Source: Mangrovibacterium lignilyticum (GTDB lineage Bacteria > Bacteroidota > Bacteroidia > Bacteroidales > Prolixibacteraceae). Taken from it: a DNA stretch of 64,000 nt. Below are positions 1 to 9,842 of this stretch, in pieces (position 1 is the first letter of the stretch; each line of letters begins with the position of its first letter). The notes beneath the pieces were generated by a model. It was given only the letters and a program-made list of their open reading frames with translations, was not told the DNA's origin and ran no database searches. The stretch spans positions 1 to 64,000 of the forward strand of contig NZ_WKLH01000002.1 of the NCBI RefSeq assembly GCF_010882175.1, written 5' to 3'. Both the position numbers and the translations under genes were made by a program.

Positions 1-1472
1 GAATAGCGATGCAATGTACTGGGACGGACTGAGCCGTAGTAGTGATGAAGCTCTTGTAATGGGAGTGGAGCGAAGGGTTCAGGTTATACAGTCACATAAC
101 ATTTAACAACTCAGGCATGAGGATGACTTTATGGGATGAGACAAAATCAGTACCTGTAAGCCGCGAAATGGTTTGGCTTGCTTACAAGAAGGTAAAAGCC
201 AATGGCGGCAGTTCCGGCGTCGACCAATTGAGCATGGATATGTTCGATTTGGAGCGTTCGCCACAGCTCTATAAGCTATGGAACCGCCTGGCGTCGGGCA
301 GTTATTTCCCGCCACCGGTTAAAGAAGTTGAGATTCCGAAGAAAGATGGCAAAGTTCGTCAATTAGGTATTCCAACCATTGCCGACCGTGTGGCACAGGA
401 AGTGGTCAAAGCATATCTGGAACCAAGGTTCGAGAAGATCTTCCACGTCAATTCGTACGGTTACCGACCGGGCAAAAGTGCTCATCAGGCACTTGCAACG
501 GTACGGGAGAACTGTAAGATGTACGACTGGGTAATCGACTTGGACATCAAAGGATTCTTTGACAACATCGACCATCAGAAATTGCTGTTAGCATTGAAGA
601 AACATGTGCCGGAGAAATGGTGTTTAATGTACCTTGAACGCTGGCTAAACGCACCTGTTCTGAATAAGAAAGGTGAGTTGATCCTGAAGCAAGGGAAAGG
701 AACACCGCAAGGAGGTGTAGTTAGTCCGCTTCTGGCCAATTTGTTTCTGCATTATGCTTTCGATGTTTGGCTAACCGGACTGAGCAATACAGTGCGATTT
801 GTAAGATATGCCGATGATGCAATCGTACACTGTAAAAGCCAGCGACAAGCGCAATGGATCATGGCCCGATTAGAAGAGCGAATGCAAAGCTGTGGGTTAG
901 AGCTGCATCCGGAGAAAACGAAAATTGTTTACTGTCGGGATTATCGCCGTAAGGAGAACTATCGCACCGTGAAATTCGATTTTCTGGGTTACAGTTTTCA
1001 GCCCCGCACATGTAAATCGAAGAAAGACGGAAAGTTATTCCTCGGTTATGATTGTGCAATCAGCACGAGCTCTAAGAAACGAATTGCTGATAAGATGGAG
1101 GAATTGAATATCATCGGGCTCACCCACAAAAGTATTGTAGGTGTAGCCCAATTCCTGAATCCGTTCATCCGTGGTTGGATAAATTACTACGGAAAGTTTA
1201 GGAAAGGCGAAATGAATCCGGTCTTTCATCTTTTGAGCAAGCGTCTGGTCCGTTGGGCACGTAAAAGGTACAAACGCTATAAAACCAATCCGCGCCGGGC
1301 TTGGCTGTGGTTTAACCGGGTTCGGGAACAATTCCCCGGCTTATTTTACCATTGGCAAGTGGGCATAACTGGTTGAAACGTTTAGATTTGTATAACAAGA
1401 GCCGGATGACGGGAGACTGTCAAGTCCGGTTCTGTGAGAGGCTTAGGGTGAAACTCCCTTTGCCTACTCGAC
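1..1472 (+). mobile_element. Group II intron, 5' end outside window
   Basis: The left 116 bases show the G-rich, AGTAGTGATGAAGC-type segment that precedes the reverse transcriptase gene in many bacterial group II introns. The RT gene follows at 117-1376. Domain V (34 nt) lies at 1399-1432: it starts GAGCCGG, ends CCGGTTC and its arms pair. Domain VI follows and ends CTACTCGAC at about 1472. Directly downstream is the R' core of an integron attC site (GTTACC at 1481), so the intron sits inside an attC. The 5' splice site is not in the window. Intron class is not assigned; a stem-loop 5' exon and an endonuclease-free RT would suit a IIC-like targeting mode, but that is inference. Confidence 0.85.
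117..1376 (+). CDS. Group II intron reverse transcriptase/maturase
   Basis: This 419-residue intron-encoded protein would reverse transcribe and help splice the surrounding intron RNA. Visible RT motifs are RQLGIPTIADR near residue 82, YGYRPGKSAHQAL, the DIKGFFDNIDH acidic motif, GTPQGGVVSPLLANLF, and the catalytic YADD at residues 231-234. A C-terminal maturase segment (FLNPFIRGWINYYGKF) follows. There is no HNH endonuclease domain after the maturase region; the protein ends at YHWQVGITG, so it belongs to an endonuclease-lacking class. The ORF is intact, whereas the other intron copies in this window keep only about 60 bases of the RT 3' end or none. ATG 117 was used; ATG 123 is an alternative. 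This protein could act in trans on the relics. Confidence 0.93.
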   Translation: MRMTLWDETKSVPVSREMVWLAYKKVKANGGSSGVDQLSMDMFDLERSPQLYKLWNRLASGSYFPPPVKEVEIPKKDGKVRQLGIPTIADRVAQEVVKAYLEPRFEKIFHVNSYGYRPGKSAHQALATVRENCKMYDWVIDLDIKGFFDNIDHQKLLLALKKHVPEKWCLMYLERWLNAPVLNKKGELILKQGKGTPQGGVVSPLLANLFLHYAFDVWLTGLSNTVRFVRYADDAIVHCKSQRQAQWIMARLEERMQSCGLELHPEKTKIVYCRDYRRKENYRTVKFDFLGYSFQPRTCKSKKDGKLFLGYDCAISTSSKKRIADKMEELNIIGLTHKSIVGVAQFLNPFIRGWINYYGKFRKGEMNPVFHLLSKRLVRWARKRYKRYKTNPRRAWLWFNRVREQFPGLFYHWQVGITG

Positions 1473-1490
1473 CCGCCACCGTTACCGCAA
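1473..1490 (+). other. attC right end (R' core) and left end of cassette 1
   Basis: Just after the intron comes CCGCCACC and then GTTACCGCAA at 1481-1490. This decamer is the exact reverse complement of TTGCGGTAAC at 1971-1980, the end of cassette 1. In integrons the cassette start (after G^TT) pairs with its own 3' R'' end in the excised circle, so this fixes the left boundary of cassette 1. The left half of this attC lies outside the window. Confidence 0.8.
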
Positions 1491-1541
1491 ATTTTGAACG
1501 CAACCATTTCGCAAATGAAAACATCTTGATGAAAAACGGAA

Positions 1542-1946
1542 ATGAAAAAAGTTATAGTATTTATCTTTTCATTACTCATACTGAGTTGTCAGAAAGACGA
1601 TTCAGAAATTGAATTTTCCTTGCCGATACCAGATGGACTAACCCATTGGGATATACTAAAAGTAGGGGGAGAAAATTCGGTTAACGTGAATGACACATTG
1701 GTACTTGATGTTTATTGTCCACGAAGTAGTAGTTGTGATTACATATCGCAATTATTGTCAGATGACTATGGAAATAAGATTCTTATTGAAGCTTTTGGGC
1801 ATACGAATACAGAATCACCTTGTTTAATGTTCGCTCTTCCACAAGTGCTTGAATATGAATTTATCCCAAACAAAAAAGGTTTCTACAGCTTGGAATTTAT
1901 TAAAAGAGATGAGACTAAAATTATTTTCACAGTAGATGTGAAATGA
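1542..1946 (+). CDS. Cassette 1: small lipoprotein of unknown function
   Basis: This 134-residue protein has a lipoprotein signal: a basic, hydrophobic N-terminus followed by the lipobox LILSC (Cys at about residue 16). It should be anchored in the envelope. The rest (FSLPIPDGLTHWDILKV and later CPRSSSCDYISQLL) matches no family I recognise. It is the only gene of cassette 1; the cassette starts 61 bases upstream at the attC core and ends 34 bases after the stop. ATG 1542 is chosen because it gives an intact signal peptide. A longer frame at 1352-1612 crosses the intron end and is a shadow. Confidence 0.75.
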   Translation: MKKVIVFIFSLLILSCQKDDSEIEFSLPIPDGLTHWDILKVGGENSVNVNDTLVLDVYCPRSSSCDYISQLLSDDYGNKILIEAFGHTNTESPCLMFALPQVLEYEFIPNKKGFYSLEFIKRDETKIIFTVDVK

Positions 1947-2020
1947 CAAGAATTGACCAAGACAAAAAACTTGCGGTAACAATTAAGCGTTCGAGCCGCG
2001 CGCAGCGCAGCGCTTGAACG

Positions 2021-2038
2021 TCCCGATAGCTATCGGGA
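2021..2038. repeat. Perfect palindrome TCCCGATAGCTATCGGGA
   Basis: An 18-bp perfect palindrome follows the L' arm of attC1. The same palindrome is at the equivalent place in attC5 (8613-8630) but absent from attC3 and attC4, where GGTGTTGACG stands instead. Short palindromes of this kind are frequent in Bacteroidota genomes; no role is claimed. Confidence 0.85.
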
Positions 2039-2127
2039 TGGACCTGAACCTTGTCCGGCCACTGACGGAACCGGGATTAATAGCCAAACAAGTATTATGG
2101 GTTTTTCGCTTTGGAATAAGATATCGG

Positions 2128-2156
2128 GCTCGACCTCAGCGGTCGGGCTTTTTTGT
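2128..2156 (+). terminator. Rho-independent terminator in attC1 block
   Basis: An 8-bp stem, GCTCGACC / GGTCGGGC with one G-T pair and a 5-nt loop, is followed by TTTTTTG. Equivalent terminators occur in the blocks after cassettes 3, 4 and 5, so most cassettes here carry their own transcription stop. Confidence 0.65.
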
Positions 2157-2276
2157 TTTTGGCGGTTCTTACGCTTTTGTTTTGCTGTTTGAGGGATGGA
2201 TTTGCTTTCGGTTGCGTGGTTCTCTGAACTGACTTTTATCCATTCGCTGAACTCCATAGAATTAACTATATTAGAA

Positions 2277-2350
2277 GAGCCGGATGACGGGAGACTGTCA
2301 AGTCCGGTTCTGTGAGAGGCTTAGGGTGAAACTCCCTTTGCCTACTCGAC
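2277..2350 (+). mobile_element. Group II intron relic: domains V and VI only
   Basis: Domain V (2277-2310) and domain VI (to 2350) match the intron at 1399-1472 essentially base for base. The sequence upstream of domain V is unrelated to the intron, so everything 5' of domain V has been lost. The relic ends with CTACTCGAC, 8 bases before the R' core. Confidence 0.85.
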
Positions 2351-2382
2351 TACCAACCGTTACCATCAATTAACCTAAAGAA

Positions 2383-3501
2383 ATGAATATAAAATCAAAG
2401 CTATTTGTAGTTGTTATTTCGATATTTTTATCGAACTGCAATAGTGTAGTTCAAAAATCAGATTCCTCCCTTGTCCAGTCAATTGACAATATTGTTGCGC
2501 CTTATATCAATTCTAATGGCCCAGGCTTATCGCTATTGGTGATTGAAAAAGGAAGTGAGTTGATTCGGAAAGGATACGGTTTGGCAAGTCTGGAACTAAA
2601 TGTCGAAAATGATCCGGAGATGATCTATAAAATTGGCTCTTTGACAAAGCAATTTACAGCTACGGCTATTCTAAAATTGGAAGAAGATGGTAAACTGAGT
2701 ATTAAAGATGACATTCGGAAATATTTGCCTGACTATCCCGATCATGGATATATAATAACCATAGAGAATCTTTTAAATCATACTTCTGGAATACCCAGTT
2801 TCACTAACCGTGCTGATATTTCGAATATTGAAAAGACAGAATTGACACCTGATCAGATCATTGCACTATTTAAGGAAGAACCATTAGAATTTCAAAGTGG
2901 TGAGAAATACTCCTATAGTGATTCTGGCTATATACTTCTTGGACTATTAATCGAAAGACTAAGTGGTGTTACCTATGAAGAATTCATAACTCAAAATCTA
3001 TTCAGTATCGCAGAGCTCAACAACACATTTTGTGACAATCCGGAAAAACTTATTTTGAATCGAGCTTCTGGTTACACATTAGATTCTTTAGAATATAAAC
3101 CAGCGCAGTATATGACAATGAAAGTTCCATATGCGGCCGGCAATTTAATATCAAATGTAAATGATCTATACAGCTGGACTAAAACATTACACAATGGAGG
3201 AATCATTTCAAAAGAACAGCTTTCAAAAATGTTCACATCGGCAAAATTATCCTCAGGAGAAAATACAGGTTACGGATTGGGAACATTTGTAAAAACATTT
3301 ACTAACCAACCTGTTTACTTTCATGATGGTTGGATTTACGGTTTTATTAGTAGTCAATTTTATTTTCCTGAATCTGATATATTTGTTGTGGTGATGTCGA
3401 ATAGTACATCAATAGATTCGCACGAAATTGCATCAAAAATCGTAGCAAAACTTTTTAACATTGAGACGTCATTGGCTGTTGATCAACTCAAATGGTACTA
3501 A
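2383..3501 (+). CDS. Cassette 2: serine hydrolase of the class C beta-lactamase/esterase fold, lipoprotein
   Basis: This 372-residue protein begins with a lipoprotein signal (IFLSNC, Cys about 19) and has the beta-lactamase-fold catalytic motifs. SLTK at residues 86-89 carries the nucleophile Ser86 and Lys89, YSD at 178-180 takes the YxN position, and HDG at 314-316 takes the place of KTG. This motif set is typical of the Beta-lactamase (PF00144) family of esterases and peptidases, so beta-lactam resistance should not be assumed. The N-to-D change at position 180 is unusual but seen among relatives. Cassette boundaries are GTTACCATC (2359-2367) and GATGGTAAC (3512-3520). The gene starts 24 bases inside the cassette. 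Confidence 0.88.
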   Translation: MNIKSKLFVVVISIFLSNCNSVVQKSDSSLVQSIDNIVAPYINSNGPGLSLLVIEKGSELIRKGYGLASLELNVENDPEMIYKIGSLTKQFTATAILKLEEDGKLSIKDDIRKYLPDYPDHGYIITIENLLNHTSGIPSFTNRADISNIEKTELTPDQIIALFKEEPLEFQSGEKYSYSDSGYILLGLLIERLSGVTYEEFITQNLFSIAELNNTFCDNPEKLILNRASGYTLDSLEYKPAQYMTMKVPYAAGNLISNVNDLYSWTKTLHNGGIISKEQLSKMFTSAKLSSGENTGYGLGTFVKTFTNQPVYFHDGWIYGFISSQFYFPESDIFVVVMSNSTSIDSHEIASKIVAKLFNIETSLAVDQLKWY

Positions 3502-3511
3502 AAATGACACA

Positions 3512-3594
3512 GATGGTAACAATATGTATGAAATTATAGCCGCACAACACCAACGCAAAATCCAAAGCTACGATTCATACACGAGCCGTTGGCG
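3512..3594 (+). other. attC site of cassette 2, uninterrupted
   Basis: R'' is GATGGTAAC (3512-3520), complementary to the start of cassette 2. An 8-bp perfect stem, TGTATGAA (3525-3532) with TTCATACA (3574-3581), forms the L''/L' arms around a 41-nt terminal loop. R' is GTTGGCG (3588-3594). The total is about 83 bp, within the normal attC range. This is the only attC here without an intron-derived block, and it serves as an internal reference. Confidence 0.8.
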
Positions 3595-3694
3595 GTAATG
3601 CTGACAGACCAAAACACCTATGTTCGTTTAAAATCATACTAAACACAGGGAAGCCAAAAACTGAATAGAGTAGGCAATTCTAAATAGTCGAAAA

Positions 3695-4189
3695 ATGAAA
3701 AAAATAATGAAGTCCTTTTATCTATTTGCTGTATTGCTACTGTTTCATAACAGTCATCTCTTTGCCCAAACGCAAAATGACTCTTTACAAATAAGAGAAA
3801 CCGTACTCAATTATATAGAAGGCATGGAAACCAATGACCCCAAAAGAATTGAAAAAGCCATGCATCCCGATTTGGCTAAACGGACCATCGCCAAAAACAA
3901 AGAAGGGATAGAATATCCAGCAAATATGACCGCAGCAAGTTTAATAGGATACGCCAAAGATTTTGATTACACCCTCTTCTATAAAGGTGACGTTGACCCC
4001 AAAGAACCTTTAAGATCGGATGTGACCATTTATGATATATCCAATGGTATTGCCTCGGTAAAAGCGGCAACAAACAAGTTTGAATTTGTCGATTACATTC
4101 ATCTGGGGAAATTAGATGGAGAGTGGAAAATTATAAACATCCTTTGGGCTTGGACAGGTAGTACCAATAAATGGATGAATAGAAAGTAA
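3695..4189 (+). CDS. Cassette 3: secreted lumazine-binding-like (NTF2-fold) protein
   Basis: This 164-residue protein has a Sec signal peptide (hydrophobic stretch about residues 6-22, cleavage after FAQ). The mature part (IRETVLNYIEGMETND, NGIASVKAATNKFEFVDYIH, GEWKIINILWAW) resembles the putative lumazine-binding family in the SnoaL/NTF2 superfamily. Such domains form cone-shaped pockets; their ligands are mostly unknown, so no reaction is assigned. Cassette boundaries are perfect 10-mers: GTTGGCGGTA at 3588-3597 and TACCGCCAAC at 4203-4212. The 97-bp leader between the attC and the ATG could hold a promoter, but no clean TAnnTTTG motif was found. Confidence 0.8.
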   Translation: MKKIMKSFYLFAVLLLFHNSHLFAQTQNDSLQIRETVLNYIEGMETNDPKRIEKAMHPDLAKRTIAKNKEGIEYPANMTAASLIGYAKDFDYTLFYKGDVDPKEPLRSDVTIYDISNGIASVKAATNKFEFVDYIHLGKLDGEWKIINILWAWTGSTNKWMNRK

Positions 4190-4347
4190 AGATAATAAAC
4201 ACTACCGCCAACAATTAAGCGTTCGGCCAGTGCGCAGCACAGTGGCTGAACCGGGTGTTGACGTGAACCTTGTCCGGCCACTGACGGACCCGGGATTGAT
4301 GACCGAAACAAGTATTATGGGTTTTCCGATGGAAAGTAAGATATGTA

Positions 4348-4374
4348 GCCTGACCACGATGGTCGGGCATTTTT
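4348..4374 (+). terminator. Rho-independent terminator in attC3 block
   Basis: GCCTGACC (4348-4355) pairs with GGTCGGGC (4361-4368) around a 5-nt loop. A T-rich tail follows (ATTTTTGTTTTT). Confidence 0.7.
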
Positions 4375-4503
4375 GTTTTTGGCAGATACTGCTCCTGTTT
4401 TTAACTGTTTGAGCGAAGGAACCAGCTTTCCGAATTTGTGTTTAGGAAACCGGTTTACGGGTTTTACTTCGCTACCGGGCATAGCTCCGCCAGGCCCCGC
4501 CAG

Positions 4504-4632
4504 TCAGGGCTTTTTTACAAGATTTATCAAATAGTTTAGGATGTCCGTATTCGGAGGTGGCCCGCGTGAGTTAAAGCGCCAGATGGTGACCAGCTTTCCT
4601 TTGCGGCAGGCCGGACACAGCAGATGCACATC
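4504..4632 (-). pseudogene. Transposase C-terminal fragment (zinc-ribbon, possibly IS91-like), copy 1
   Basis: Read on the minus strand, 42 codons are open and end in TGA. They give a CPACRKGK zinc-ribbon half, then LVTIWRF and SRGPPPNTDILNYL. A C-x2-C knuckle followed by a GPP motif at the very C-terminus resembles the tails of IS91-type HUH transposases of Bacteroidota. That match is from memory and tentative. Upstream, on the minus strand, the frame runs straight into intron sequence, so the fragment is truncated at a junction near 4633. The fragment is duplicated at 6632-6760. Confidence 0.45.
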
Positions 4633-4635
4633 GGG

Positions 4636-4791
4636 GCGTTCGGGAACAATTCCCCGGCTTGTTTTATCATTGGCAAGTGGGTATCACTGGTTGAAAATGT
4701 TTAGATTTGTATAACAAGAGCCGGATGACGGGAGACTGTCAAGTCCGGTTCCGTGAGAGGCTTAGGGTGAAACTCCCTTTGCCTACTCGAC
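4636..4791 (+). mobile_element. Group II intron relic: RT 3' tail plus domains V/VI, copy 1
   Basis: Homology to the complete intron starts in the last codons of the RT gene (GTTCGGGAACAATTCCCCGG, compare about 1320) and continues through the interval before domain V, then domains V and VI, ending CTACTCGAC. More than a kilobase of RT has been lost and the junction is to a transposase fragment. Domain V is identical to the other copies. Confidence 0.85.
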
Positions 4792-4813
4792 CAAGTGACC
4801 GTTATAGCACATA

Positions 4814-6325
4814 ATGAAAAAAGAATTAAAGCACATGAAGATTATAAAAAACATTTTATTACTAACCATCTTTTTTATTTCTATATCCTGTAATCACAAG
4901 GATAAATTCACTGAGAAAAAACAAATTGTCGTTACAGGGAAAATACATCAGTATAACGGAGAAAATGCCAAGTTGTATTTTATTTATTCACAGCCAGGAG
5001 GAAAAGACTCAAAAGAATTGATTAATATTGATAGTGTCGGTAATTTTCAATACGCAATTGAAGGCTACATTCCCTTAGATGCAATGCTTTTAGAACAAAC
5101 AACATTTGCAAACATCAATTTCATTTACCACCCCGGAGATAGTATTCATTTGGAATTTAAAACAAATGAAAAACAATTACCTCTATTAAAAACAGTTAAA
5201 TTCAGTGGAGACAGGGCTGAGACGAATAATCATCTGATTAATTTTCAAATTTTGAGAGAAGAAAACAATCTTGGGTACGGTGTAATAAATCCAAATGAGG
5301 CATACAAAAAAAATACTGATGATTTCATAACTCAAATGGATTCTGTTAAAGAAAAACAATTAAACATTTACAATCAATTTATTTCAAAATACACACCGAA
5401 CCAAGAAACAAAAAACTGGGCAATCTATTTTGCCAATGAAACCTATTTCTACTTTCTTGATGATTATAGTATTGGCAAAAACGACCTTCCCTTAAATTAT
5501 TTTGATTACAACAAGCAAATACTTCCTTTAACCATAGACAAGCTCGTTAGTTGGAGAGTTTTGACTTCAAGAATAAATAGCTATTGGAGGAACATCACAA
5601 AACCAGCAATTGTGCAACAGTTTTCTGACAAAATGGAAGAAATAAAAAGTGGGTCGATAAATACCGATTCACTTATAATAAATTTTATAAATACCGAATC
5701 TCCTGATAAATTACTTTCCGAATTATTATTGGCACATTATTATTCGGGACAGTTTGGAGCTAATATAATTAATGGTTATCAACAAAACCAAACACTATTA
5801 AATTCAAGTTTAGACAATTTTTTTATAAAAGAAGTCTTAACTGAAAATTATCAAGCAACTTATGACTTTATCAATAAACCAAATGAATTCACTAATGAAA
5901 TTTTAGGAAAAATAGATAATACCCCTATTGAGAAAACATTTGCTAAAATCCTAAATGATAACAGAGGGAAAATAATTTATCTAGATTGCTGGGCAACTTG
6001 GTGTGCCCCTTGCATAAAAGCAATGCCTGACTCTAAGAAATTAATGAAAAAATTTGAGGGAAAAGACATTGCTTTTGTTTATGTCTGCATCGAATCAGAG
6101 GAGGATTTGTGGAAAAGATTATTATCAGAATTTAATCTTGGTGGAGGACAGCATTATTTATTAAATAAAGAGCAAAGTGAATTTTTCAGAAACGCACTTG
6201 ATATACAAGGTATTCCAAAATATTTTTTAATTGACAAAAATGGAAATATAGTGGAACAGGGGTCACACCTTCATCCAAGTGAAAAATTGGCAGAAGAAAA
6301 AATAGATAAATTAATGAAAGAATAA
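4814..6325 (+). CDS. Cassette 4: TlpA-type thioredoxin-fold lipoprotein with N-terminal DUF4369-like domain
   Basis: The 503-residue protein is probably a membrane-anchored thiol-disulfide oxidoreductase on the periplasmic side. A lipobox (FFISISC, about residue 25) precedes a beta-rich DUF4369-like domain with repeated GxxYxYxxxG-style elements. A helical middle and a C-terminal thioredoxin domain with the redox motif WCAPC (C397, C400) follow, with cis-Pro in GIPKYF. This architecture is common in Bacteroidota, often reducing or isomerising envelope proteins. The ATG at 4814 lies only 13 bases from the R' core, so the leader is very short; ATG 4835 is an alternative that keeps the signal. 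Cassette ends are GTTATAGCAC (4801) and GTGCTATAAT (6332-6341), a 9/10 match. Confidence 0.88.
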   Translation: MKKELKHMKIIKNILLLTIFFISISCNHKDKFTEKKQIVVTGKIHQYNGENAKLYFIYSQPGGKDSKELINIDSVGNFQYAIEGYIPLDAMLLEQTTFANINFIYHPGDSIHLEFKTNEKQLPLLKTVKFSGDRAETNNHLINFQILREENNLGYGVINPNEAYKKNTDDFITQMDSVKEKQLNIYNQFISKYTPNQETKNWAIYFANETYFYFLDDYSIGKNDLPLNYFDYNKQILPLTIDKLVSWRVLTSRINSYWRNITKPAIVQQFSDKMEEIKSGSINTDSLIINFINTESPDKLLSELLLAHYYSGQFGANIINGYQQNQTLLNSSLDNFFIKEVLTENYQATYDFINKPNEFTNEILGKIDNTPIEKTFAKILNDNRGKIIYLDCWATWCAPCIKAMPDSKKLMKKFEGKDIAFVYVCIESEEDLWKRLLSEFNLGGGQHYLLNKEQSEFFRNALDIQGIPKYFLIDKNGNIVEQGSHLHPSEKLAEEKIDKLMKE

Positions 6326-6476
6326 AATTACGTGCTATAATAATTAAGTGTTCGAGCCGCGCGCAGCGCAGCGCTTGAACGCGGTGTTGACGTGAACCTT
6401 GTCCGGCCACTGACGGAACCGGGATTGATAGCCGAAACAAGTATTATGGGTTTTCCGATGGAAAGTAAGATATGTA

Positions 6477-6503
6477 GCCTGACCACGATGGTCGGGCATT
6501 TTT
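6477..6503 (+). terminator. Rho-independent terminator in attC4 block
   Basis: GCCTGACC (6477-6484) pairs with GGTCGGGC (6490-6497), followed by ATTTTTGTTTTT. It lies about 150 bases after the stop codon of the cassette 4 gene. Confidence 0.7.
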
Positions 6504-6631
6504 GTTTTTGGCAGATACTGCTCCTGTTTTTAACTGTTTGAGCGAAGGATTTGCTTTCCGAATTTGTGTTTAGGAAACCGGTTTCCGGGTTTTACTTCGC
6601 TACCGGGCAAAGCTCCGCCAGGCCCCGCCAG

Positions 6632-6760
6632 TCAGGGCTTTTTTACAAGATTTATCAAATAGTTTAGGATGTCCGTATTCGGAGGTGGCCCGCGTGAGTT
6701 AAAGCGCCAGATGGTGACCAGCTTTCCTTTGCGGCAGGCCGGACATTGTAGATGCATATC
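6632..6760 (-). pseudogene. Transposase C-terminal fragment (zinc-ribbon, possibly IS91-like), copy 2
   Basis: Same 42-codon open fragment as at 4504-4632. The CPACRKGK knuckle and SRGPPPNTD tail are unchanged, with substitutions just upstream (DMHLQC in place of DVHLLC). Family assignment is tentative. Confidence 0.45.
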
Positions 6761-6763
6761 GGG

Positions 6764-6919
6764 GCGTTCGGGAACAATTCCCCGGCTTGTTTTATCATTG
6801 GCAAGTGGGTATCACTGGTTGAAAATGTTTAGATTTGTATAACAAGAGCCGGATGACGGGAGACTGTCAAGTCCGGTTCTGTGAGAGGCTTAGGGTGAAA
6901 CTCCCTTTGCCTACTCGAC
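6764..6919 (+). mobile_element. Group II intron relic: RT 3' tail plus domains V/VI, copy 2
   Basis: Same extent as the relic at 4636-4791. Domain V lies at about 6846-6879, and the relic ends CTACTCGAC at 6919, nine bases before the R' core. Confidence 0.85.
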
Positions 6920-6973
6920 CAAGTGACCGTTATGCGCAATAAGGTGTGTAAACGGCATAAATATTATTAAAAA

Positions 6974-8566
6974 ATGAAGCGTAAAAAATTTTTGATTATA
7001 GCAGTTTCAAGCCTGTTAGTATTTTTTATTGCTTTTGGGATTTTTAGGGCTGTTCAAGTAAAAACACTAGTAAAAGAACTCTTTAAGCTGAATAAACAAT
7101 TGCAAAAAGAAGGCTATTACATGGCTGATTTTGAGTTCAGGGGGCTAGGATTCTCATACCTGTTGGATAAAGGGGAATATTTAAAATCTATAAATAATTT
7201 ATTGAAATATCATTCTAAACTAAAGAACAGAGAAGGATTGCTGAAAATTCCGGATTTCAATAATAAACAAGAAGAAATAGACTTTTTTCTTAATCTGCAA
7301 AATCCAAAAACGGGAGCATTTATTGATGAATCTGTTCCTTATTGCGTATACTGGGAGATTTCGCAAAATATAATAAATCACTTGGAATCATTAATGGATT
7401 CAACATCTGCCCCTTTACAACTTAAATATCCATTAAAATTTCTAGATGATATTAATACACCCGAGAAACTCTATGTTTTCCTGAACGACATTTCCTATGT
7501 TGGTTGGAAAGCTTCTAAATTTCCCCAAACTACCTTTCATTTTGCGCGTAACTTATTGGATTGTGCAAAACAAGGCAATATTTTAGAAAGAAATAATTTG
7601 TACAGTTTTTCGCCCGAATGGAAACATGCTATGTTAAAATGGATGTATGATTTTCAAGATAGTACAAGTGGCATGTGGGGACCCAAAAGCAAAAGTACAG
7701 GTGAAATAATCAAATATGACCTCAATAATACAGCCTCAATACTAAAAGCATATAGGGACAATGATGGGAATGACTTATATGAAGACTTTCCATTACGATA
7801 TACCGATAGATTATTTTTAAAATCTCTGCAAATTCTTTCAGAACCATATCCTGACGAAGATGAATTAGATGAAATCCATGAATGGAATCTAAAGAAAGTA
7901 AAAGGGTTTAAAATGATTTTACGATATCTGTGGAAAGATGCATCAAAACAAGATAGGCAAGCTACAGAGAATTTATTGGAAGATTTTGTAAAAATAAGCT
8001 TTGATAAATACTACGTAAAATCAGAAGGAGCATTTAGTTATTATCCCCAATCAAAACATGCATCAGTAGATGGATTTTCAAATATGATTTTTGATGATAT
8101 TGGAGCATTTTCATACACAAAACAAAAGAAACTGTTTGGTGAATCCATTGATTCCATTCAGAATCACGGAAGTATATCAATTGAAAATTTTAAGCCTTTT
8201 ATTCAGGAAATTTTGAAAGGTGATATGAAAATTAATTCACTCCGCTTTTATAAAACTAAACCTGACAGTTCGAAATTAACAGAAAATGTTTGGGCCTTAT
8301 ATTATCCAAATAATTCCGGTATTTTGGATGTTACAGAGTTAGTCCCCAATTTAGTTGCATGGGCTGATTCTACCACGCTTTCAGTAGGTAATTGGACATC
8401 GGTAGCAGAGAAAAAGAAAGAACTGGAAAAGTTACATATTAAAAAGCCCATAATTTTGTTGGAAAATAATATTGAAAATGTGCTTGAAGCTGAAGATAAT
8501 GTGTATTGTATTGGATTTAATGTTCTTCAGATACCGAAATTTATTATAAAATGCAATTCAAAGTAA
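6974..8566 (+). CDS. Cassette 5: large membrane-anchored protein of unknown function
   Basis: This 530-residue protein has one N-terminal transmembrane segment or uncleaved signal (about residues 5-25, no lipobox), so the rest should face the periplasm. I do not recognise the family. Helix-rich sequence with elements such as WMYDFQDSTSGMWGPKS and DFFLNLQNPKTGAF is reminiscent of alpha/alpha toroid (terpenoid-cyclase-like or glycosidase-like) repeats, but no catalytic motif is visible. Cassette ends GTTATGCGC (6929-6937) and GCGCATAAC (8569-8577) are perfect 9-mers. Codon use is AT-rich like the other cassettes and unlike the core genes that follow. Confidence 0.72.
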   Translation: MKRKKFLIIAVSSLLVFFIAFGIFRAVQVKTLVKELFKLNKQLQKEGYYMADFEFRGLGFSYLLDKGEYLKSINNLLKYHSKLKNREGLLKIPDFNNKQEEIDFFLNLQNPKTGAFIDESVPYCVYWEISQNIINHLESLMDSTSAPLQLKYPLKFLDDINTPEKLYVFLNDISYVGWKASKFPQTTFHFARNLLDCAKQGNILERNNLYSFSPEWKHAMLKWMYDFQDSTSGMWGPKSKSTGEIIKYDLNNTASILKAYRDNDGNDLYEDFPLRYTDRLFLKSLQILSEPYPDEDELDEIHEWNLKKVKGFKMILRYLWKDASKQDRQATENLLEDFVKISFDKYYVKSEGAFSYYPQSKHASVDGFSNMIFDDIGAFSYTKQKKLFGESIDSIQNHGSISIENFKPFIQEILKGDMKINSLRFYKTKPDSSKLTENVWALYYPNNSGILDVTELVPNLVAWADSTTLSVGNWTSVAEKKKELEKLHIKKPIILLENNIENVLEAEDNVYCIGFNVLQIPKFIIKCNSK

Positions 8567-8568
8567 AA

Positions 8569-8612
8569 GCGCATAACAATTAAGCGTTCGAGCCGCGCGC
8601 AGCGCTTGAACG
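8569..8612 (+). other. attC left half of cassette 5 (last in array)
   Basis: R'' GCGCATAAC (8569-8577) is followed by AATTAAG and a shortened hairpin GCGTTCGAGC..GCTTGAACG that lacks one GCAGC unit present in attC1 and attC4. No intron domain V/VI and no convincing R' core were found downstream, so the array appears to end here. Confidence 0.68.
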
Positions 8613-8895
8613 TCCCGATAGCTATCGGGATGGACCTGAACCTTGTCCGGCCACTGACGGAACCGGGATTGATAGCCGAAGCAAGTATTATGGGTTTTTC
8701 GATGGAAAGTAAGATACTTAGCCTGACCATGAAGGTCGGGCTTTTTCGTTTTTGGCAGATACTGCTCCTGTATTCTAAGCTTTGACCGCAAGATTTGTTT
8801 CCCGATTTCGTTTTCCGAAAGCCGGTTTTAGGTTTTTGCTTCGCTACCGGGCAAAGCTCCGCCAGGCCCCGTTGTCAGGGCTTTTTCACAAGTTG
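8613..8895 (+). repeat. Terminal attC block without intron relic
   Basis: Palindrome TCCCGATAGCTATCGGGA (8613-8630) is followed by the shared CCTTGTCCGGCCACTGACGG segment, a terminator and the ACTTCGCTACCGGGC to CAGGGCTTTTT segment, all as in the blocks at 4243 and 6382. Similarity stops near 8895. The remaining bases to 9011 show no gene or motif. Confidence 0.8.
8721..8746 (+). terminator. Rho-independent terminator after cassette 5
   Basis: GCCTGACC (8721-8728) pairs with GGTCGGGC (8734-8741), followed by TTTTTCG. Confidence 0.7.
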
Positions 8896-9011
8896 CATCA
8901 TAAGCTTTAGTGTCTGAATATGTTTTGGTAGGGACACTGATAAGCTTCACAATAGCTGTGTTTATTGGAATCGGAAGTCGTGCAATATTGAAGTTTTGAG
9001 CGTTTTATAAG

Positions 9012-9842
9012 CTATTTTTCAAAAGAACAAGCCACCCAATTATTTTTTTCCTTCAAGATCAGTTTACGAAGAAATAGCTCGGATGCTTTACCTATAATAT
9101 CTTCTAAATCGTCTTTGTAAAATCCGCTAACAATCAAAATGCCATCTTCATTCAGCACGTTAAAATACTTTTCCATATCCTGCATGATGATATTCTTCTG
9201 AATATTCGCTAAAATCAGATCGTATTTCTTGTTACCCAATAAGGAGGCGTCTCCAATAAAGGCTTCCATATTTTCAACTTGATTTAGACGACAATTCTCA
9301 ACAACACTTTCAAACGCCCAGCTGTCTATATCGATTGCAGTAACATTTTCACAGCCTTTCATTGATGCAAAAATTCCGAGGATACCGGTTCCACATCCCA
9401 TATCGAGCACAGTTTGTCCTTCGATATTTAAATCATTGAGATGCTCAATCATTAACGAAGTTGTCTCGTGATTACCGGTACCAAAAGCCATATTAGGCTC
9501 AATAACGATTTCATATTGCGACTGAGGATATTCGGTATGAAAAGGAGCACGAATCAAGCAGTTTGTTCCGATTAGAAGCGGCTTGAAATAGTTTTTCTCC
9601 CATTCTTCATTCCAGTTAATGTCGGGCATTTCTTCGGTTTGGAAAGAAACGGTAAACGGAATATCGTTAATCACTTGATTGATCAGTTCTGCGGAGACTT
9701 TTCCTATCGGAAAGAACGCATTGAGTGACTCTTCAGTTTCGTCGAAACTCTCGAAATCAAGCGCAGATAAATACGCGGTCAAAATTTCCCGATTAACTTC
9801 GTTGTCAGGATTTAGTGTGAAAATCGCTTTTGTGTATTGCAT
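9012..9842 (-). CDS. prmA: Ribosomal protein L11 methyltransferase
   Basis: A 276-residue SAM-dependent methyltransferase that should modify ribosomal protein L11. The SAM-binding motif I is VLDMGCGTGILGI at residues 145-157. AFGTGNHETT (about 119-128) upstream of it is highly characteristic of PrmA, and LILANIQ forms motif IV. Length is normal for Bacteroidota. It is the last gene of a minus-strand run (ybbR, coaE, J-domain gene, prmA) and ends 115 bases from the cassette array, so it marks the start of stable chromosome. Confidence 0.95.
   Translation of the reverse strand: MQYTKAIFTLNPDNEVNREILTAYLSALDFESFDETEESLNAFFPIGKVSAELINQVINDIPFTVSFQTEEMPDINWNEEWEKNYFKPLLIGTNCLIRAPFHTEYPQSQYEIVIEPNMAFGTGNHETTSLMIEHLNDLNIEGQTVLDMGCGTGILGIFASMKGCENVTAIDIDSWAFESVVENCRLNQVENMEAFIGDASLLGNKKYDLILANIQKNIIMQDMEKYFNVLNEDGILIVSGFYKDDLEDIIGKASELFLRKLILKEKNNWVACSFEK

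Follow-up and report, generated by a model that had tools for sequence, protein, structure and literature searches.

IS1111-attC elements are insertion sequences specific for attC, the recombination site of gene cassettes. The IS91 family is characterized by rolling-circle transposition into a tetranucleotide target, and some of its transposons have an associated tyrosine recombinase. Group II introns enter attC as well. In the available part of PMC7923331, IIC-attC introns are described as occupying the bottom strand of attC at R'' (TTGT/T) and running opposite to the cassettes; UHB.I2 (group IIB1, just downstream of attC) and an intron in the top strand of an Enterobacter cloacae attC follow the cassette orientation, and it is proposed that introns help join genes to attC by homologous recombination. 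Here we analyze a 64,000-nucleotide stretch (the window) of Mangrovibacterium lignilyticum, the first 64 kb of contig NZ_WKLH01000002.1, which begins with the end of a cassette array whose attC sites contain large inserts, or blocks. These blocks are mosaics of two attC-targeting elements, a group II intron and a unit with an IS91-family transposase, and the enlarged sites are probably scars, not working giant recombination sites.

The window's genome (Prolixibacteraceae) comprises 5.6 Mb in 16 contigs. Below, C denotes a contig of this genome (the window starts C9), G a genome, L a locus stretch, and W1–W4 the blocks of the window. The array end contains five cassettes between 1481 and 8577 and gives way to chromosomal sequence from ~8.9 kb onward (Table 1). 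The first-pass annotation, made from the letters alone, had described a cassette array with matched ends. This is borne out in 5/5 cassettes, where R' agrees with its own R'' over 9–10 nt (the first base of cassette 4 differs), compared to only 3–6 nt in the 20 other pairings. It had also counted blocks in four of the five attC sites and at the left edge. The count is correct, with blocks starting at ~1981, 4213, 6342 and 8578 in four of the five complete inter-cassette sites, but the last one (W4) has neither an intron part with D5/D6 (intron domains 5 and 6) nor an R', and its unit left end runs into the chromosome.

The right halves of W1–W3 are ends of group II introns. The Rfam model of group II D5/D6 (RF00029) matches at 1397–1472, 2275–2350, 4716–4791 and 6844–6919, with E-values from 4e-10 to 2.6e-09; thus, the intron origin of the three right halves is not due to chance. 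The right part of W1 is 94% identical over 102 nt to an intron copy in G127 (L074) that lacks an open reading frame (ORF) and contains D1–D4, D5/D6 and both junctions. The right parts of W2 and W3 are 95.5% and 96.1% identical, respectively, to the intron at the left edge of the window (1320–1473). The 3' exon of this left-edge intron is CCGCCACC followed by GTTACCGC, that of W1 is TACCAACC with R' following at 2359, and W2 (4792–4800) and W3 (6920–6928) both have CAAGTGACC.

Complete introns of ~1.9 kb are present in attC sites of relatives, including three consecutive sites of G070 whose intron copies are 99.9% alike over 1905 nt; a full intron of G070 lies at L114 7203–9107. In the window's genome and its relatives, complete introns start with GTGTGCCGAGAAGC behind the attC L' arm and end with CTCGAC before the spacer. 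Judged by eye in the loci searched, an attC arm stands before 15 of 18 5' junctions, and a 7–9 nt spacer and GTT come after 20 of 21 3' junctions, five of these junctions being in composites. Empty targets fix the insertion point (slash) at the sequence level: CCACATA/CAAGTGACC-GTT in the window's genome (L025), another in G070, and CCTCATA/CCACCACC-GTTACCGC in G107, whose counterpart in the window is CTCGAC/CCGCCACC-GTTACCGC. The G107 target precedes a homologue of cassette 1 (76%), behind which stand ~300 nt of other sequence and then the same R'' with a native attC. The view that attC sites are intron targets is thus right. Contigs of the window's genome also end inside intron copies (C1, C4, C8 end, C9 start, C10 start), so assembly has fragmented its arrays, and the genome probably contains several full introns of near-identical sequence.

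We searched named genomes for the reverse transcriptase (RT), keeping 80 of 141 loci encoding a relative; 67 of the 80 were scored for the 3' spacer (of the rest, 2 were too short and 11 not scorable). All 11 scored RTs above 66% identity precede a 7–9 nt spacer and GTT, compared to 6 of 56 scored RTs below 60% identity under the same loose rule. By eye, 13 of 15 RTs above 65% identity fit, L208 and L240 being without a clear 3' end. The 11 RTs and the window RT form one clade (support 100/99, tree of 68 rows) with members in Prolixibacteraceae, Marinilabiliaceae and Flavobacteriaceae, and insertion into attC recurs within this one lineage. The sequences indicate a single Bacteroidota clade of introns specific for the attC top strand. 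The closest solved RTs are GsI-IIC (152 bits), 7uim (149), 5hhj (142), LtrA (136) and 6me0 (134). The intron RNA matches RF01999 (103 and 96 bits in two complete relatives); in sequence, D5 starts with GAGC and its triad is AGC.

The left halves have a different source. The first-pass annotation had derived the blocks as a whole from introns, which holds for the right halves of W1–W3 only; the left halves match an IS91-like unit. Even with E-values of up to 1 allowed, Rfam detects no intron D1–D4 in the window, whereas the two complete relatives tested have the RF01999 matches given above. We also considered that the left half might be a diverged domain I of the intron; this was dropped, as complete introns start with GTGTGCCGAGAAGC and the window has no Rfam D1–D4 match. 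The rearrangement noted in the annotation is real, each composite joining an intron 3' end to a unit end. A complete unit is located between two H hairpins in L024 of the window's genome. It encodes, both on the minus strand, an IS91-family transposase (NF033538, 401 bits) and a 298-aa tyrosine recombinase, with Y2_Tnp, Zn_Tnp_IS91 and Phage_integrase domains; the Y2_Tnp transposase with its zinc domain is that of the IS91 family. The recombinase scores best with NF040815 (189 bits), followed by integron-integrase (180), XerC (149) and XerD (146), all below cut-offs.

The window's left halves are 78–99% identical to the left end of the L024 unit: 97.7% over 43 nt and 78.4% over 153 nt in W1, 82% over 61 nt (4210–4269) and 96.4% over 366 nt (4282–4646) in W2, 96.7% over 60 nt and 98.6% over 365 nt in W3, and 96.8% over 31 nt and 86% over 242 nt in W4. 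Among 393 genomes of the order, the unit left end has matches in three, the window's genome included. At array ends and in relatives, there are also bare left ends that lack any intron part. Five left ends have a palindrome, TCCCGATAGCTATCGGGA, where the GGTGTTGACG stretch of the unit would begin (window 2021–2038 and 8613–8630; L021 10485–10502, 11652–11669 and 12384–12401).

The insertion point of the unit is visible in the sequence of G114, where related units (14 transposase matches) stand in attC exactly at R'' (AA/C). All nine non-tandem left ends stop at ..AA/C, four others follow a previous copy, and one was not resolved. On the right side, GTTCAA/C is followed by seven different native attC bodies or by a further copy (four cases); two units (L157, L141) have other sequence there and one (L160) was not resolved. 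By eye, the left end of these units has a fixed attC-like hairpin, of which H is the counterpart in the window's genome. The alternative that H is a host attC and the unit an ordinary next cassette was dropped because in G114 the fixed hairpin accompanies the unit, and the native attC bodies that come next differ from case to case. An H-like hairpin was also observed directly before a gene for a putative REP-associated (RAYT-type) transposase in G013 (L079, 7560–8160, minus strand).

Eight composites of unit end and intron end are present in the window's genome: W1–W3, C10a–c, C8a and C9b. The first-pass annotation could have been undone by blocks scattered outside attC as an ordinary dispersed repeat; instead, six of the eight lie between a recognizable R'' and R'. 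Their breakpoints are sharp. A junction from ~unit 143 to position 564 of the ORF-less intron is common to C10a, C10b, C10c, C8a and C9b (the BLAST piece of C8a stops short of it), W2 and W3 have in common a junction from unit 414 to RT 1320 with a 9-nt overlap, and the junction of W1 is its own. The 3' exons vary by site, except for the recurrent CAAGTGACC. The two hairpin types (H1, H2) are found in all four combinations with the palindrome: with it, H1 in W1 and C10d and H2 in C10b; without it, H1 in W3 and C8b and H2 in W2, C10a and C8a. Thus, copies exchanged parts or changed repeatedly, and from the reshuffled left-end alleles it appears that the scars probably spread by recombination.

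Native attC arms were not found in the composites. A set of 25 attC bodies from relatives and the window's genome (four supplied by L026) has no match at E≤1e-4 in window 1–9100, and none in the composite stretches of C10, C8a and C9; the same bodies do match ordinary arrays of the window's genome (L025, L128, L026). Native sites in the relatives and in this genome keep both R''/R' and L''/L', and composites R''/R' only. The array is not standardized, as the first-pass annotation had described it: other arrays of the window's genome carry ordinary attC sites. Homologues of cassette 5 are found in G111 (86%) and G072 (88%); a native attC follows the one in G111, and none is evident behind the one in G072. 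The sequences of G107 and G111, with ordinary attC sites at the places of the window's blocks, show the pre-insertion states of two cassettes.

We consider it likely that two elements inserted separately into one ordinary attC, that each complete block is what remained after collapse, and that this remnant was then spread by recombination. The unit, with its IS91-family transposase, its IntI/Xer-like recombinase and its own hairpin H, would enter at R'' (AA/C) in inverse orientation, and the group II intron, oriented like the cassettes, between L' and R' (..ATA/CAAGTGACC-GTT). Subsequent deletions would remove the unit body, the L''/L' arms of the host attC and the 5' part of the intron, leaving R''-H-unit end-D5/D6-spacer-R'. 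With the common left end and the nearly identical D5–D6 as homology, this composite could pass from one attC site to another through homologous recombination or gene conversion. The presence of both complete elements in the same attC, the order of these events, and recombination in place of separate transposition are steps we infer; the first of them, the double-hit stage, is inferred because no attC with both complete elements was found.

Several further observations count against this account. One intron target (L115) is not an attC, and L123 and the contig edge in L124 are ambiguous. The association of the hairpin with the moving unit in G114 was judged by eye; H is itself attC-like, so that "unit hairpin" and "attC hairpin" do not exclude each other, and in a relative (L072) an H hairpin follows a sequence that is not evident as R''. 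Among the composites, C10c has an altered R'' and C9b is located behind the right end of a complete unit. Finally, the compact composite (H, unit end, D5/D6) could be a mobile element in its own right, a non-autonomous one inserting into attC. Such an element would be expected to have one internal junction in different surroundings, as seen at five places. On the other side, each copy is bordered on the right by a site-specific 3' exon, the host L''/L' arms are missing instead of displaced, and the window blocks have no D1–D4 match, which makes this explanation improbable.

Less probable still is the reading of the first-pass annotation, in which each site kept its own attC hairpin and a degenerate intron block forms a giant bulge between L' and R', the sites recombining via R'' and the far R'. 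It would account for the fact that R' and R'' of each cassette still match and for the position of the intron D5/D6 directly before spacer and R', and one hairpin in a relative (L077 of G127) has no unit sequence behind it and lies in a perfect palindrome. However, the hairpin and the sequence following it match the IS91-like unit, two cassettes have other attC arms in relatives, and the 25 native bodies give no match, so the hairpin taken for the cassette's own L''/L' is the end of another attC-targeting element. In DNA folds of the bottom strand, the check that the annotation had itself proposed, the R''/far-R' pairing probability is 0–0.02 in W1 and 0 in W2 and W3. In W2, R'' instead pairs with GTTGACG just behind the hairpin (0.95–0.97 at 7/8 R-box positions), as in a typical short attC. 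The corresponding short site R''-H-GTTGACG of W3 has a pairing of 0 and no attC fold, and in copies with the palindrome the near GTTGACG box is changed. If the composites recombine at all, the folds suggest the near GTTGACG as a likelier partner than the far R'. Finally, it is scarcely credible that insertions and deletions occurred independently in each block, with no exchange among the copies: both elements do target attC and have several copies each, but breakpoints are common to five and to two places, and all four hairpin/palindrome combinations are present.

The features of the array end are listed in Table 1. At the start of cassette 3 (3644–3676), a match to the Rfam DUF805b RNA was observed (32.1 bits, below the gathering score of 35.6).

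Table 1. Coordinates of the cassettes, blocks and intron parts at the array end of the window.
Feature	Position	Strand	Remarks
Intron 3' part with RT/maturase gene	1-1472	+	cut by contig start; in attC before cassette 1
RT/maturase ORF of left-edge intron	117-1376	+	RVT_1 and GIIM; TIGR04416 411.6 bits
Cassette 1 (R' to R'')	1481-1980	+	ORF 1542-1946; ends match 10 nt
Block W1, left part	1981-2209	+	attC-like hairpin H1 to 2020, palindrome 2021-2038, IS91-like unit left end
Block W1, right part	2248-2350	+	end of ORF-less group II intron; D5/D6 2275-2350
Cassette 2	2359-3520	+	ORF 2383-3501, Pfam PF00144 (beta-lactamase-fold family)
attC without block (between cassettes 2 and 3)	3518-3590	+	plain attC with R'' and R'
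Cassette 3	3588-4212	+	ORF 3695-4189; ends match 10 nt
Block W2, left part	4213-4646	+	hairpin H2 and IS91-like unit left end into transposase 3' end
Block W2, right part	4638-4791	+	RT gene 3' end and D5/D6
Cassette 4	4801-6341	+	ORF 4814-6325, thioredoxin-like domain
Block W3, left part	6342-6774	+	hairpin H1 and IS91-like unit left end
Block W3, right part	6766-6919	+	RT gene 3' end and D5/D6
Cassette 5	6929-8577	+	ORF 6974-8566; ends match 9 nt
Terminal block W4	8578-8892	+	hairpin with internal deletion, palindrome 8613-8630, IS91-like unit left end

In Bacteroidetes proper, the accessible part of PMC9024848 reports one complete integron, that of Salinibacter ruber. The window's genome has no IntI match over the TIGR02249 cut-off, so the arrangement of a canonical integron, in which IntI with its additional domain stands beside the array, is not seen; at E 1e-40, IntI was found in 5 of 140 family genomes, and an attC finder run around the IntI genes of G111, G113 and G076 (three regions) detected no clear array. 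Instead, arrays of relatives begin behind a tyrosine recombinase of 374–405 aa (open frame) that reads in cassette direction. Ten loci containing the gene and downstream sequence were inspected. In eight (L119, L302, L304, L306, L307, L311, L314 and L301), a GTT with a partner of at least 9 nt within 2.5 kb stands 43–93 nt behind the recombinase stop codon, and by eye an attC-like body lies behind the partner in all eight; L312 and L310 have no such matched GTT behind the recombinase. In a control, 128 of 2000 random 100-nt windows of the same loci had a matched GTT. L301 is contig C12 of the window's genome (recombinase at 7958–9133). L309 stops at a contig edge, and L024 keeps only a C-terminal recombinase remnant at the array head.

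The L119 recombinase (4321–5520) matches NF040815, "site-specific tyrosine recombinase/integron integrase", with 244.8 bits (cut-off 220), and TIGR02249 in two pieces with 212 bits, below its cut-off. In an alignment, nine array-type recombinases, among them that of the ambiguous array L310, lack a ~30-residue insertion present in four IntI proteins of the same family. In a recombinase tree (leaving out the IntI row L085, a wrong ORF), the array-head recombinases do not form one clade, and several branches are long. The family is not restricted to arrays, since relatives of the recombinase are common on plasmids in other phyla; one relative, from a Parabacteroides plasmid, stands at the head of a row of immunity genes. 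A Chryseobacterium plasmid (NZ_CP041688.1, L318) was seen to encode a related recombinase followed by mostly co-directional small genes, together with attC-like repeats and a group II intron gene.

In G040, where no IntI was found at E 1e-40, two cassettes recur in another order with 99.9% and 94.8% identity and with their 3' attC bodies. An inverted array polarity had been suggested, as the 3' arm has the extra base more often (15 versus 4, 4 equal, n = 23); it was set aside because these two shuffled cassettes carry the attC body 3' of the gene. A row of 21 attC-like sites (score at least 12.5) was observed in the region of these cassettes, at ~3.506–3.559 Mb of the same genome (L302, L303, L120).

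The tie between the recombinase and cassette movement rests on position. It is possible, as a picture that we hold tentatively and would not yet favor, that a ~390-aa XerA/IntI-like recombinase lacking the I2 helix operates the arrays as working integrons, that on their attC sites two unrelated parasites, the top-strand intron and the IS91/recombinase unit, have specialized, and that the unit moves as an inverted cassette via its own related recombinase. In the available portion of PMC7790495, I2 is credited with the move to single-strand recombination; a platform behind a recombinase without I2 would make the need for I2 in cassette recombination directly testable. More generally, our results suggest that at least two types of site-specific element compete for attC sites as their niche. 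Element sequence held in common may overwrite the attC of several cassettes by recombination, a possible route to similar attC sites. The composites fit, in spirit, the proposal in the available part of PMC7923331, with intron sequence acting as portable homology. Among the titles and abstract beginnings listed for IS91 with attC, IIC-attC introns, and integrons with Prolixibacter, none concerns these elements. The intron clade and the attC-targeting IS91 unit appear to be new variants, and the array-head recombinase without I2 seems the most interesting lead.

As in integrons and in rAID arrays, a recombinase gene is followed by cassettes with matched ends. The array platform and the Parabacteroides row of immunity genes are reminiscent of the rAID recombinase arrays of gut Bacteroidales. 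Unlike integron IntI, the array-head recombinase lacks the IntI insertion and reads in cassette direction. The unit resembles the IS91 family in its Y2_Tnp transposase with a zinc domain, but it is found at attC R'' in G114, partly in tandem rows, and has an attC-like hairpin at one end. The transposase of IS1111-attC elements is of another type, DEDD, according to the available part of PMC11187229. Group IIC-attC introns, as described in the part of PMC7923331 at hand, are similarly specific for attC, also occur in arrays without IntI and have the attC hairpin in their 5' exon. However, the window-type introns are not placed in the bottom strand at R'' (TTGT/T) opposite to the cassettes; with polarity taken from the shuffled cassettes of G040, they lie in the top strand between L' and R' (ATA/CAAGTGACC-GTT), running with the cassettes, and their D5 has GAGC (AGC triad) compared to CGC for IIC in that source. 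UHB.I2 and the Enterobacter cloacae intron have the same orientation as the cassettes, but in the same partial text they are single cases, whereas the window-type introns represent one RT clade with repeated insertions in several Bacteroidota families.

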